Positions 17,681-28,458 of a stretch of 64,000 nucleotides of DNA are shown here, piece after piece. A program made the position numbers and the translations under genes. Within the stretch, counting starts at the first letter, position 1; each line of letters begins with the position of its first letter. The notes below the pieces were generated by a model. The model searched no databases, was not told the DNA's origin, and saw nothing but the letters and a program-made list of their open reading frames with translations. This DNA is from Bacteroidia bacterium. GTDB lineage: Bacteria > Bacteroidota > Bacteroidia > Flavobacteriales_D > Parvicellaceae. The stretch is from the NCBI GenBank assembly GCA_030426105.1, contig JAUHZI010000003.1:1-64000 (forward strand), written 5' to 3'.

Positions 17681-18841
17681 ATGGATATTAGTATTTATTT
17701 TGAGGGGGTAATTCCTCCAGATGATTTTAAGAGAGGAACAATAGGGTCTTATACTGATTTTAATACTGAAAGTAACTTTCCTAATATTGAAGATGCTAAA
17801 GTAGCTATTGTTGGTGTTCAAGAAGATAGAGGAGGAGTACTTAATAAAGGATGCGCAAAATCGCCTGATGAGGTCCGTAGAGAGTTGTATCAGCTATATA
17901 TTCAAGGAGAGAACTTTCCAATTGTTGATTTAGGAAATATCAAAGCGGGAGCATCAAAAGAAGATACTTATTTTGCCTTGACTGAAGTTGTAGAACAATT
18001 GATAAAGAAAGATATATTTGTTATAATAATTGGAGGAAGCCAAGATTTAACCTATGCCAATTATAAAGCTTACGAAAAATTAGAACAGACAGTTAACCTT
18101 GCAGTTATTGATAATCAATTTGATATTGGAGAGGCAAATGAAGAAATATCAACAAAAGCCTTTTTAAATAAGATTATTCTACATCAACCTAACTATTTAT
18201 TTAATGCAAGCATCTTAGGTTATCAGACTTACTTTGTATCTCCTATTGATAAAAAATTAATGGAGGATTTGTATTTTGATATCTATCGTTTGGGAGAACT
18301 ACAATCAGATATTTCTAAAACAGAACCTATTGTTAGAAATGCTGATATGATTAGTGTCGATGTTTCAGCAATAAGAAGTTCTGATTTTAGAGCAAATAAA
18401 GCTGCCACTCCTAATGGCTTTTATGCAGAGCAAATATGTCAAATACTTAGGTATGCTGGAATGAGCGATAAACTAACAAGTATAGGACTATATGAATATA
18501 ATTCAACATTAGATGTAGAAAATGCAATGTCGTCACAATTGATGGGGCAGATGATTTGGTGCATTTTAGATGGATTTATCAATCGTAAAAAAGATTTTCC
18601 TGTTGGTTCTAAAAAAAGTTATACGAAATATAGAATTCATGTAGAGAATACAGAGCATGAATTGGTCTTTTATAAGAGTGATTTATCTGATAGGTGGTGG
18701 ATGGAGATTCCTTACCCTCCCCACGAAAGAGTTCGATTTGAAAGACACCATTTAGTTCCTTGTAACTATCAAGATTATATTGATGCTAGTCAACAACAGA
18801 TTCCTGATCTATGGTGGAAGACATACCAAAAATTACAATAA
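17681..18841 (+). CDS. Arginase / formimidoylglutamase family protein
   Basis: Ureohydrolase-like fold motifs (VQEDRGGVLNKGCAKSPDEVRRELYQL; IIIGGSQDLTYANYKAY; ADMISVDVSAIRSSDF) as in the Bacteroidota arginase-like family. The usual metal-ligand His residues look altered. Confidence 0.75.
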   Translation: MDISIYFEGVIPPDDFKRGTIGSYTDFNTESNFPNIEDAKVAIVGVQEDRGGVLNKGCAKSPDEVRRELYQLYIQGENFPIVDLGNIKAGASKEDTYFALTEVVEQLIKKDIFVIIIGGSQDLTYANYKAYEKLEQTVNLAVIDNQFDIGEANEEISTKAFLNKIILHQPNYLFNASILGYQTYFVSPIDKKLMEDLYFDIYRLGELQSDISKTEPIVRNADMISVDVSAIRSSDFRANKAATPNGFYAEQICQILRYAGMSDKLTSIGLYEYNSTLDVENAMSSQLMGQMIWCILDGFINRKKDFPVGSKKSYTKYRIHVENTEHELVFYKSDLSDRWWMEIPYPPHERVRFERHHLVPCNYQDYIDASQQQIPDLWWKTYQKLQ

Positions 18842-18872
18842 AAAAAAGCGCATTATTTAATGCGCTTTTTTT
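18841..18872. terminator. Bidirectional terminator
   Basis: AAAAAAAGCGCATTA / TAATGCGCTTTTTTT with a 2-nt loop, between convergent genes ending at 18841 (+) and 18875 (-). Confidence 0.85.
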
Positions 18873-18874
18873 AT

Positions 18875-20476
18875 TTAAAATTTAATACACCAGAGAACAG
18901 AAATATTGGTAGGTCTCGTTTCAGCTCCTCCATTATTTCCAGAATTAAATTGCGCAATGTCAACACTGTGCGTGTGATTACCACTACTTCCAGAGTTAAA
19001 TTGAGCAATATCTACACTATGTGTGTGGTTACCAGAAGAAGATGAGGTAAATGCAGGAATATTAACGCTATGAGCATGGCTTCCGTCAGTGGCAATAGTG
19101 TGTGTATGATTCAGTCTTGAGCATCCCATTGTTCCAAGAAAGTTTCCTACAGTACCATGTCCATTCCATGGATTTCCACAGGTAGTTGGGGCTACGCTTG
19201 TTTCATTTACTGTATTGCTCGATAAGTTATCGTCATATGGAATCCAAGCACCAGCATCAAATGTAGATACGCCTCCTGTTCTTCCACTATGGTTGTGTCC
19301 CCCATTTGTTGAAGTGTTTGTATTTGGTGGATCGATAGAGTGTGTGTGTGCTCCTGCAGAACTGGTATTTGTAGCAGGAGGGTTGATTGTATGTGTATGT
19401 GCTCCTGCAGAACTGGTGTTGGTAGCAGGAGGGTTTACAGTATGACTGTGCGCAATAATCTCACTACTCTGTTTTGTACCAACTGCGTCTCCTGTTGTTC
19501 CATCTCCTCTATCAGTTCTTGAAGCTGCATCGGGATCTACTCCAGTTCCATTATCAAAACCTCTTAAGAATTGTCCATTATAGTTAGGTAGGTTAAATGT
19601 TGTCGAGCCATCACCTGCCCCATACATCGTACCTATAAGTGAAAATAAGTTGTTGTAAGTTGTTCTGCTAACTGCTTGTCCATTGCAGACAAGATACCCT
19701 GATGGAGGTGTAGCTGTTGGAAATGCAAAAATAGCACCTACTGGAGTTTGAACTGAATAGACTAAAGGTGCTAAATCTGCGGTAATTGTACCACCTCCAT
19801 CTGAAATTTGTAGAACAGATCCTGATAAAGAAAAACTAGTGTTATATTCATTGGTAGGGTCACTATCATTGTCAGACAAGGCATTTAAGTTGGCAGTTAA
19901 GTCGTTACCATTTTCGTAGATGTGTAGTATTGTTCCGATGAGAACAACACTGTCCACGTCTGTGTCAATAGAATCTCTAAGGTTATTTATAAAATTATTG
20001 TTGTGTAGTAATGTATCTGCATTATTGTATAGAGTACTAACAATACTATCTGTAAAAGACTGGGAAAATAAAGTGTCTGAGTTGTTAACTAGGTAGTTAA
20101 TAGCACTATCTCGAATAGCCACTAAGTCAACAGAAGCATTTCCTCCATCTTCCAAGTAGGTTGTTAGAATGTAGTTGTTCAAAGTCAAACTATCAAGTTG
20201 TTGATCATCAGTGCCGCCATTATTTGTGCCAAGAAGATTTCCCAAATCACTTGATGTAATATATTTGACTATACCAGTGCTATTGTTTATTATAAGAAGA
20301 GATGTATCGCCTATGCTGTATGATTGTAAGCCATCAATTCTAAGCGGATTATCTCCATTATTAATAGGTGAAATATGTAATGAATGAGTAGGAGAAGCTT
20401 GGTTAATTCCTACATTTTGAGCATGCCCTAATGTGCTTAAGCAAAGGGCTAGTATTATAAGTTTTAATTGGTTCAT
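18875..20476 (-). CDS. Secreted tail-collar-domain protein with HxH repeats (paralog 1)
   Basis: Signal peptide, NVGINQASPTHSLHISPINNGD N-terminus, phage tail-collar segment (PVGAIFAFPTATPPSGYLVCNGQAVSRTTYNNLFSLIGTMYGAGDGSTTFNLPNYNGQFLRG), HxH repeats, and C-terminal RPTNISVLWCIKF. Confidence 0.85.
   Translation of the reverse strand: MNQLKLIILALCLSTLGHAQNVGINQASPTHSLHISPINNGDNPLRIDGLQSYSIGDTSLLIINNSTGIVKYITSSDLGNLLGTNNGGTDDQQLDSLTLNNYILTTYLEDGGNASVDLVAIRDSAINYLVNNSDTLFSQSFTDSIVSTLYNNADTLLHNNNFINNLRDSIDTDVDSVVLIGTILHIYENGNDLTANLNALSDNDSDPTNEYNTSFSLSGSVLQISDGGGTITADLAPLVYSVQTPVGAIFAFPTATPPSGYLVCNGQAVSRTTYNNLFSLIGTMYGAGDGSTTFNLPNYNGQFLRGFDNGTGVDPDAASRTDRGDGTTGDAVGTKQSSEIIAHSHTVNPPATNTSSAGAHTHTINPPATNTSSAGAHTHSIDPPNTNTSTNGGHNHSGRTGGVSTFDAGAWIPYDDNLSSNTVNETSVAPTTCGNPWNGHGTVGNFLGTMGCSRLNHTHTIATDGSHAHSVNIPAFTSSSSGNHTHSVDIAQFNSGSSGNHTHSVDIAQFNSGNNGGAETRPTNISVLWCIKF
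18945..19460 (-). repeat. Two arrays of HxH-containing ~15-17-aa repeats flanking a unique tip (paralog 1)
   Basis: N-terminal array HSHTVNPPATNTSSAGAHTHTINPPATNTSSAGAHTHSIDPPNTNTSTNGGHNH. C-terminal array NHTHTIATDGSHAHSVNIPAFTSSSSGNHTHSVDIAQFNSGSSGNHTHSVDIAQFNSG. Four HxH motifs on each side. Confidence 0.9.
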
Positions 20477-20487
20477 AGCTGTTGGGT

Positions 20488-22125
20488 TTAAAATTTAATA
20501 CACCATAGAACAGAAACATTTGTAGGTCTCGTTTCTGAACCACCGACATTTCCAGAGTTAAATTGAGCAATGTCTACACTGTGTGAATGGTTGCCACTAT
20601 TTCCAGAATTAAATTGGGCAATATTTACTGAATGTGAATGATTTCCACTATTTCCAGAATTGAATTGAGGGATATCAACTGAGTGTGAGTGGTTCCCCGC
20701 TGTAGCTGAATTGAATGCAGGTATGTTAACCGTATGAGTATGATTTCCCGCATTTGCTGTAGTTCCAGACCTTCCAACTCCTCCCCAAGTAGAAGGGTTC
20801 GTTCCATAAGCATACCCGGTTCCGTTGTTGCCAACATTTGTTCCTGTGTTTAGAAAACCATTTCCATTTAAGGCCCCATGATTATGGTTACCATTGGTAG
20901 ATGTGCTTGTATTGGGAGGGTCAACTGTATGGTTGTGGTTTCCAGTTGTGTTTGTGTTAGTAGCGGGAGGGTTTACTGTGTGAGTATGTGCTCCATTTGT
21001 ACTTGTCGTAGTATTAGGTGGGTCAACAGTATGTGTATGCGCTCCATCAGTACTTGTGTTTGTTGCAGGAGGGTTAACAGTATGGCTATGTGCAAGTATT
21101 TCATTACTTTGTTTTGTCCCAACAGCATCTCCTGTAGTTCCATCTCCTCTATCTGTTCTTGAAGCTGCATCTGGGTCAACACCAGAGCTATTATCAATAC
21201 CTCTTAAAAATTGACCATTATAGTTGGGTAAATTGAATGTTGTAGACCCATCACCAGGACCATACATCGTACCTATAGCAGCGAAAAGGTCTGAATAAGT
21301 GCTTCTACTTACTGCGCTACCATCGCAAGCTAAATAGCCACTTGGAGCAGATGCTCCTGCAAAAGCAGTTACTGAACCTGCTGGGATAGCATTTGCAACA
21401 GCTGTATTGATAATAGGTGTTAAATCAACAGTGATACTTCCTCCAGCATCTGTAATGCTTAAGATGTTTCCACTTAAAGAAGCGTTTGTATTGTGCTCAT
21501 TAGTTGGGTCATTATCATTGTCAGATAAAGAGCTTAAATCAGCGGTAAGGTCATTTCCGTTCTCATAAACATGAAGTATTGTACCATTTAATGTTATACT
21601 ATCTACATCGGTATCAATAGAATCTCTTAAATTATTAATGAAATTACTGTTGTATAAGAGTGTATCAGCATTGTTGTATAAGGTACTAATAATACTGTCA
21701 GTAAATGACTGAGAGAATAAGGTGTCAGAATTACTGATTAAGTAATTTACAGCACTATCACGTATAGCAGTTAAATCCACAGAAGCGTTCCCTCCATCTT
21801 CTAAGTAAGTTGTAAGAATATAGTTGTTTAAAATTAAACTATCAAGTTGTTGGTCATCAGTTCCTAGGCCAGAACCATTACTAATTAAGTTAACAAAATC
21901 ACTTGAAGTAATATACTTTACCACTCCAGTAGAGTTATTGATAATTAAAAGTGAAGTATCTCCAATGTTGTAGGACTGTAAACCTTCTATTCGGATAGGG
22001 TCATCTCCATTGTTGATTGGGGAAATATGTAAAGAATGAGTAGGGGAAGGTTGGTTAATCCCTACATTTTGTGCCGTTAACTTGATGGCAATCAGGCATA
22101 ACAAAGAAAGTATAAATCTATTCAT
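20488..22125 (-). CDS. Secreted tail-collar-domain protein with HxH repeats (paralog 2)
   Basis: Same architecture as 18875-20476, with near-identical N-terminal and collar regions. Signal peptide MNRFILSLLCLIAIKLTAQ, C-terminal RPTNVSVLWCIKF. Confidence 0.85.
   Translation of the reverse strand: MNRFILSLLCLIAIKLTAQNVGINQPSPTHSLHISPINNGDDPIRIEGLQSYNIGDTSLLIINNSTGVVKYITSSDFVNLISNGSGLGTDDQQLDSLILNNYILTTYLEDGGNASVDLTAIRDSAVNYLISNSDTLFSQSFTDSIISTLYNNADTLLYNSNFINNLRDSIDTDVDSITLNGTILHVYENGNDLTADLSSLSDNDNDPTNEHNTNASLSGNILSITDAGGSITVDLTPIINTAVANAIPAGSVTAFAGASAPSGYLACDGSAVSRSTYSDLFAAIGTMYGPGDGSTTFNLPNYNGQFLRGIDNSSGVDPDAASRTDRGDGTTGDAVGTKQSNEILAHSHTVNPPATNTSTDGAHTHTVDPPNTTTSTNGAHTHTVNPPATNTNTTGNHNHTVDPPNTSTSTNGNHNHGALNGNGFLNTGTNVGNNGTGYAYGTNPSTWGGVGRSGTTANAGNHTHTVNIPAFNSATAGNHSHSVDIPQFNSGNSGNHSHSVNIAQFNSGNSGNHSHSVDIAQFNSGNVGGSETRPTNVSVLWCIKF
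20560..21100 (-). repeat. Two arrays of HxH-containing repeats flanking a unique tip (paralog 2)
   Basis: Five HxH motifs (HSH, HTH, HTH, HNH, HNH) before and four (HTH, HSH, HSH, HSH) after the tip GALNGNGFLNTGTNVGNNGTGYAYGTNPSTWGGVGRSGTTANAGN. Confidence 0.9.
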
Positions 22126-27693: not shown

Positions 27694-28458
27694 TTGAATC
27701 TAATAAACCAAAATATAATGGAAAAAGCATTGAAGTTATGTGTTGACTTGGAAAAAGATTCATTGTCAAAAATAGCTTTTGTTAAGATAAAAAAAACAGC
27801 ATTTGTAAATAGTTTAAGAAAACTAATTCTAACAAAAGGGGAGGCATTATATCAATCAAAGAACACATGTGGAATTGCGGCTTCTTTATATGTTTTAGCA
27901 CAATATGACTTAATTGGGCTCGTTGAATTTTCAATTAGTTTATACAAAGAGGGGATAGGAACTTTTAACGGTTATCAAATAACAAAAGAGGATAATGTTA
28001 AAGTATGGGCTGCAACAATTAAACCTAGTGATAGTTTTAATGGAGTAAGTTTGGTTTTGATTGGATCAATGCGTTTTAAAGAAAATAATAGTTTAAGATT
28101 TGAAAAAGGAACATTAGATGGGATGACTTGGCCTTTTGAAGTCAGAACTATACTTAGATTGATGACTGGTAGAAAAGTTATGAGCTCATTTTTTGGGAGC
28201 TGGGGACTGAAAAGGCTTGGGGAGAAACTGGAAAAAGGACATGGAGTTATTTTGTTGTATCGAACCATAAGTTGGAAAAAAAAGAAACAATTGTTTAGTG
28301 ATCCATGGCATTATATTGTTCTAAAAGAGATTAATTATACTAATAAGAAAAATATTTTGATAACTTATTGGGATTATGGAAGTATAAAAAAGATAAATAT
28401 TACAAAGTGGCAATTTTACAAAGGTGTTGTTAAAACTTTTGTTTTGTCGCATTATTAA
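27694..28458 (+). CDS. Predicted papain-like cysteine protease-fold protein
   Basis: YQSKNTCGIAASLYVLAQYD (Gln/Cys), DPWHYIVLKEINY (His), ILITYWDYG (acid) in the Cys-His-Asp order. Start may be TTG 27694 or ATG 27718. Confidence 0.5.
   Translation: MNLINQNIMEKALKLCVDLEKDSLSKIAFVKIKKTAFVNSLRKLILTKGEALYQSKNTCGIAASLYVLAQYDLIGLVEFSISLYKEGIGTFNGYQITKEDNVKVWAATIKPSDSFNGVSLVLIGSMRFKENNSLRFEKGTLDGMTWPFEVRTILRLMTGRKVMSSFFGSWGLKRLGEKLEKGHGVILLYRTISWKKKKQLFSDPWHYIVLKEINYTNKKNILITYWDYGSIKKINITKWQFYKGVVKTFVLSHY

Follow-up and report, generated by a model that had tools for sequence, protein, structure and literature searches.

In bacteriophage T4 gp37, the collar domain (D10) consists of residues 811–881 and 1010–1026, while the needle forms an insertion between these segments, made of two stems of 50 residues each (882–931 and 960–1009), which are joined by a tip (932–959) and hold seven irons (PMC6957217). 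The open-access literature that we searched contained no account of secreted needles of this kind. Here we describe a pair of genes in the first 64,000 nucleotides of contig JAUHZI010000003.1 (hereafter the window) of a Bacteroidia bacterium of the family Parvicellaceae, whose genome assembly (GCA_030426105.1) is 86% complete with 6% contamination. We consider it fairly probable (roughly 70%), judging from sequence comparison, that the pair encodes Sec-exported, host-owned recognition fibres carrying a distal needle of the T4 gp37 type.

The two genes are tandem, intact open reading frames on the minus strand (18875–20476 and 20488–22125), 11 bases apart, which encode needle protein 1 (533 amino acids, 18878–20476, stop codon 18875–18877) and needle protein 2 (545 amino acids, 20491–22125, stop codon 20488–20490). 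Both proteins have the same order of parts, namely a signal peptide, an N-terminus of the Bacteroidota NVGINQ type, a variable base region, a collar domain, an array of HxH motifs (two histidines flanking any residue), a unique segment, a second HxH array and a phage-fibre-like ending. The signal peptides, recognised by eye and by hydropathy (for protein 2, that of its orthologue), are MNQLKLIILALCLSTLGHA followed by Q in protein 1 (20420–20476) and MNRFILSLLCLIAIKLTA followed by Q in protein 2 (22072–22125). Collar (PF07484) is the sole Pfam domain, at residues 247–303 of protein 1 (19568–19738, E = 1.4e-22) and 250–306 of protein 2 (21208–21378, E = 1.6e-22; mostly above 90 in predicted local distance difference test, pLDDT, in the AlphaFold2 model), and its scores of 79.9 and 79.6 bits lie far above the curated cut-off of 24. 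In protein 1 the collar is followed by a down arm (residues 343–396, 19289–19450) with four HxH at a period of 17, a tip of 70 residues (397–466, 19079–19288) containing two Cys and one extra HxH, and an up arm (residues 467–517, 18926–19078) with three HxH at the same period. Protein 2 has a down arm with five HxH (residues 346–416, 20878–21090), a tip of 45 residues (417–461, 20743–20877) and an up arm with four (residues 462–529, 20539–20742), also at a period of 17. The proteins end in ETRPTNISVLWCIKF and ETRPTNVSVLWCIKF, of the ETRPTN.SVLWCIKF type resembling gp37 and gp12, and HHalign and profile comparisons indicate that the last segment, AETRPTNISVLWCIKF in protein 1 (18878–18925) and its counterpart in protein 2 (20491–20538; strand pLDDT about 90), is equivalent to the one that closes the collar in gp37 and gp12. 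All named PHROGs matches are to tail fibre or collar families, and a search of NCBIfam with the two proteins gave no match.

The HxH motifs start at residues 343, 360, 377, 394, 457, 467, 484 and 501 of protein 1 and at 346, 363, 380, 397, 414, 462, 479, 496 and 513 of protein 2, and the totals of 8 and 9 compare with a mean of 0.86 and a maximum of 6 in 20,000 composition-matched shuffles. This two-protein architecture had already been described in a sequence-only reading of the window, and it holds. The array counts given there, 4 or 5 in the first array and 4 in the second, need one correction: in protein 1, HxH 457 lies only 10 residues, not 17, ahead of the next motif and is assigned to the tip type, so that the stem counts become 4/3 in protein 1 and 5/4 in protein 2. 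A viral fibre (L273) likewise has an additional HxH 10 residues ahead of the up arm, which means that phages too have this tip-ring feature.

HHalign aligned the family with the gp37 C-terminus at a probability of 98.65 (E = 4.8e-16), spanning both collar and needle, and a profile search of the PDB retrieved T4 gp12 (1OCY, E = 7.8e-15), the gp37 tip (2XGF, E = 2.8e-9) and 8KEC, which bears out the relationship to T4 gp37 and other collar structures expected from the sequence-only reading. Using a partly confident collar-needle model, Foldseek found 8KEC (E = 4e-5) and 2XGF (E = 3e-3). With an AlphaFold2 model of a short needle it gave weak matches to 2XGF and to 6OV6, the latter being the best but not significant (E = 9e-3) and serving as a lead only. 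The order of the parts, which is that of T4, and the matched arm lengths and mirrored spacing described below support a needle inserted into the collar, whose chain would run out and back along arms of equal length.

The arrangement of the HxH motifs follows strict rules. Every complete needle gene of the genus has a period of exactly 17 and its last HxH exactly 33 residues from the C-terminus, and, with the extra HxH of the protein 1-type tip left aside, these genes have n+1 HxH in the down arm and n in the up arm, with n from 2 to 5. Related loci were taken as the best 80 of each scan, and among 59 non-redundant relatives (sharing <70% identity in their final 200 residues) the n+1/n rule is kept in 57, compared with a mean of 14 and a maximum of 27 after shuffling, where the permutation p value stands at its floor of 5e-5 but is only indicative because shuffling leaves relatedness in place. 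The rule is kept in 15 of 15 Bacteroidota genes and in 23 of 25 hold-out loci fetched once it had been noticed; besides T4, the exceptions are L259 and L265, and the pattern search used for counting misses degenerate HxH. The diversity of the periods (12, 15–18, 17) argues against simple inheritance of the counts. Moreover, the intervals of the down arm and the mirrored intervals of the up arm are correlated at 0.97, and in the 11 proteins with unequal spacings the mismatch is 21 in mirrored order versus 45 in parallel order. Uneven spacings are mostly, but not always, mirror images: in L305 both arms, counted from the collar, read 12,12,14,12, and further mirrored cases are 12,14 (L317) and 17,17,16 (L044). 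If each array forms one arm of a single needle, the lengths of the two must be coupled. The coupled counts and mirrored spacing support the prediction of a staggered antiparallel hairpin, and together with the homology to 2XGF they lend support to the earlier proposal that the arrays are the down and up strands of a gp37-type needle.

Comparison with a second genome of the genus (G002, 95% complete), in which the gene neighbourhood is conserved, gave dN/dS values (ratios of nonsynonymous to synonymous substitution rates) of 0.02–0.08 over base and stems, with dS near saturation in places, indicating strong purifying selection on the two window genes. The picture is different in the tips. Between protein 2 and its syntenic orthologue (L006), identity is 93% in the N-terminal part, 86% in the collar, 80% in the down arm and 88% in the up arm versus 29% in the tip, and this comparison marks the tip of protein 2 as swapped. 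With the non-orthologous L026, the same protein shares 17% in the N-terminal part and 22% in the collar versus 84% in the tip. The copies L024 and L026 have N-termini that are 96% identical, unrelated tips, and 4/4 versus 3/3 full repeats, while L007 and L008 differ by a dS of 0.09 in the tip versus 1.2–1.5 in the collar and down arm. These contrasts in identity and dS indicate that the tips move as cassettes and that the arm lengths change in concert. That whole tips are replaced while stems and bases stay conserved suggests that it matters which tip a protein carries.

Several points weigh against a needle-bearing surface fibre. The HHalign and HMMER scores are partly compositional, owing to the Gly/His/Thr-rich repeats, although the collar alone is significant nonetheless. 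In the AlphaFold2 monomer of the protein 2 C-terminus, the collar exceeds a pLDDT of 90 whereas the needle reaches only about 40–60, and over this model and that of the shortest relative (n = 2) the needle lies at about 40–65, too poor in both to tell whether the strands pair or which way the histidines point. T4 gp37 itself, with irregularly spaced HxH (3 down, 4 up), breaks the n+1/n count, and residue arithmetic places its HxH rings in a staggered but uneven order. Finally, no outer-membrane export signal was recognised in either protein, neither a C-terminal domain of the type IX secretion system (T9SS) nor a lipobox; the Por_Secre_tail and CHU_C sorting domains are absent from both, although the genome uses T9SS and has 130 Por_Secre_tail matches. 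The needle proteins might, on this ground, stay in the periplasm. This last point is what favours a periplasmic or secreted protein of the gp37 fold that lost receptor binding and serves, for example, as a structural linker, an explanation that we regard as unlikely, since the wholesale tip replacement described above speaks for a tip whose identity matters. We think it quite improbable that the arrays are a metal store or buffer of an exported His-rich protein with an incidental needle shape. The proteins are indeed exported and rich in histidines, and a role as iron ligands in the sea has been suggested for phage HxH fibres (PMC11705849), but the strict count and mirror rules, the fixed collar closure and the variable, non-His tip point to a constraint on shape and not on capacity.

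Signal peptides are a feature of the 17-residue Bacteroidota type. A crude hydropathy filter for signal peptides, applied to complete proteins, was passed by 12 of 14 Bacteroidota relatives; in protein 1 and its orthologue only the placement of charges falls short, and by eye both look like typical signal peptides. Among phage and proteobacterial relatives only L306 and L307 pass, both borderline and sharing one phage-type start. Since phage parts assemble in the cytoplasm, the signal peptide counts against an origin as phage fibres.

The genes lie in a conserved housekeeping neighbourhood. In G002, both orthologues lie, as in the window, between topA/formimidoylglutamase on one side and an M23 peptidase and kynurenine genes on the other, and no phage or injection-system genes were seen near the pair. 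Neither Terminase_6N nor Caudo_TAP (PF02413, the gp38-type chaperone) was matched in the eight genomes of the genus, the chaperone search not extending to gp57A. Sheath and baseplate-J matches were found only in the genome of the window, on another contig (C13), and in G006 (baseplate-J only), and there were none in G001–G005 and G007, several of which carry many copies of the needle family. The locus on C13 (L200:9270–19719) is a contractile injection system with CIS_tube (E = 5e-53), sheath, spike and baseplate J, and also encodes uncharacterised proteins of 912 and 1706 amino acids; it is unlinked to the pair, and no Collar gene was found on that contig. Export and host ownership are supported by the signal peptides, by the synteny shared with G002, by the existence of paralogues, by the purifying selection and by the absence of the searched phage markers. 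This agrees with the sequence-only reading, which had inferred that the proteins would be exported and host-owned and had seen nothing else of a phage or injection system in the window. Although phage fibres typically combine a collar with an HxH needle, the own genome holds the injection system on C13, and the fold relative C24 of Bizionia (6OV6) has been ascribed to a temperate phage (Pellizza 2020, cited through PMC11821841), we reject as very improbable a pair of tail fibres from a cryptic prophage, tailocin or extracellular contractile injection system, given the signal peptides, the housekeeping synteny, the lack of Terminase_6N and Caudo_TAP matches in the eight genomes, the lack of sheath and baseplate-J matches in G001–G005 and G007, and the lack of a Collar gene on C13.

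The family has a narrow distribution. The query matched at least once in all eight genomes of the genus, and several times in most, whereas 29 other genomes of the family gave nothing at E = 1e-10. One of the eight (G007) has a collar-region match only, so that needles were seen in seven, the own genome and six others. In a sample of the phylum, only 11 of 399 genomes gave matches at E = 1e-15, most of which fell in the collar, and the idea of a family general to Bacteroidota was dropped. The survey of related genomes suggested earlier did reveal other needle genes in Saprospiraceae, Psychroserpens and further Flavobacteriales contigs. A plasmid origin was also discarded, as the matches were only partial and confined to the collar region. 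Against 50,697 phage records, the tip of protein 2 had no match and that of protein 1 only one at E = 0.4.

In the same genome, a third needle gene with 6/5 HxH is found on contig C63. There (L201:1460–14397) exported proteins have a common NVGIG-type N-terminus and repeat shaft but different C-terminal heads (one Fib_succ_major-like, an unknown protein of 791 amino acids, and the 6/5 needle), with T9SS-sorted proteins adjoining, and the cluster is possibly a modular fibre locus. A fourth Collar gene, on contig C280 (L001:217–2004), encodes an exported protein with the same collar-closing end, in which a short head without HxH replaces the needle. Elsewhere, the Saccharospirillaceae metagenome-assembled genome CANMOZ carries five similar fibre genes on separate contigs (L062, L070, L080, L081 and L091), with 6/5 HxH repeating every 12 residues and without a signal peptide, which are perhaps several prophage or particle loci. 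Within the window, a terminator-like hairpin on the minus strand (18841–18872) lies directly downstream of the pair, its position being the sole argument for it since the number of hairpins is not above that in shuffles. A conserved protein of 254 amino acids from an unknown family (27694–28458, plus strand, TTG start), without NCBIfam match, is also present in G002, where it lies beside kynureninase.

Returning to recognition fibres with a gp37-type needle, we assume that the collar would act as the base, from which each chain extends along a down arm with n+1 HxH, forms a tip of 40–70 residues, comes back along an up arm with n HxH and closes the collar again with its last 16 residues. If gp37 is a guide, the needle would be wound from three chains, with metal ions stacked on its axis by the staggered HxH of both arms; protein 2 could hold as many as 9 such sites, protein 1 as many as 8 (7 along the stem and 1 at the tip) and the C63 paralogue as many as 11. 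The stem would be a rigid, conserved support and the tip the recognition element, exchanged as a cassette among gene copies, probably through recombination within the DNA repeats of the stem. Once exported by Sec, the fibres would have to fold with no gp38-type chaperone, and, if displayed outside the cell, their most likely role would be surface binding to a prey, host, partner cell or glycan. Whether bacteria took over the gp37 needle more broadly, as a Sec-exported chromosomal repertoire of fibres with metal-pinned stems, co-varying arms and tip cassettes recombined within the repeats, folded outside the cytoplasm without phage chaperones, seems to us about evenly balanced. If true, a phage receptor-binding device would have been turned into a family of exported cellular fibres, whose points are changed by cassette swapping as phages do for host change. 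It would also raise the question of how a metal-threaded needle is loaded and folded after Sec export. The n+1/n and mirrored-spacing rules could allow such needles to be recognised, and the number of their metal sites predicted, from sequence only.

Compared with known systems, the window proteins share with the T4 gp37 tip (2XGF) the collar, the needle inserted in it, HxH on both arms, a distal tip loop and the collar-closing C-terminus. They differ in that gp37 is cytoplasmic, virion-borne and folded with gp38 and gp57A, with the irregular HxH spacing and 3/4 counts given above, whereas the window proteins have a signal peptide, regular 17-residue repeats and n+1/n counts, and no gp38-type chaperone family was found in the eight genomes. 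The cyanophage A-1(L) tail fibre (8KEC) is the closest solved sequence by phmmer and Foldseek, covering the collar and part of the needle, but it is a phage fibre and its second array is unaligned. C24 of Bizionia argentinensis (6OV6) is a Bacteroidota protein with a T4 tip-like needle; however, it has no sequence match to the window family. T4 gp12 (1OCY) has the Collar and the ETRP.N closing strand but lacks long regular HxH arrays. Phage and prophage collar fibres with a 12-residue period (e.g. L056, L123 and L305) share the collar, the n+1/n counts with mirrored intervals and the ending, but they have no signal peptide, carry mostly 12-residue repeats and are encoded on viral contigs or in proteobacterial genomes.
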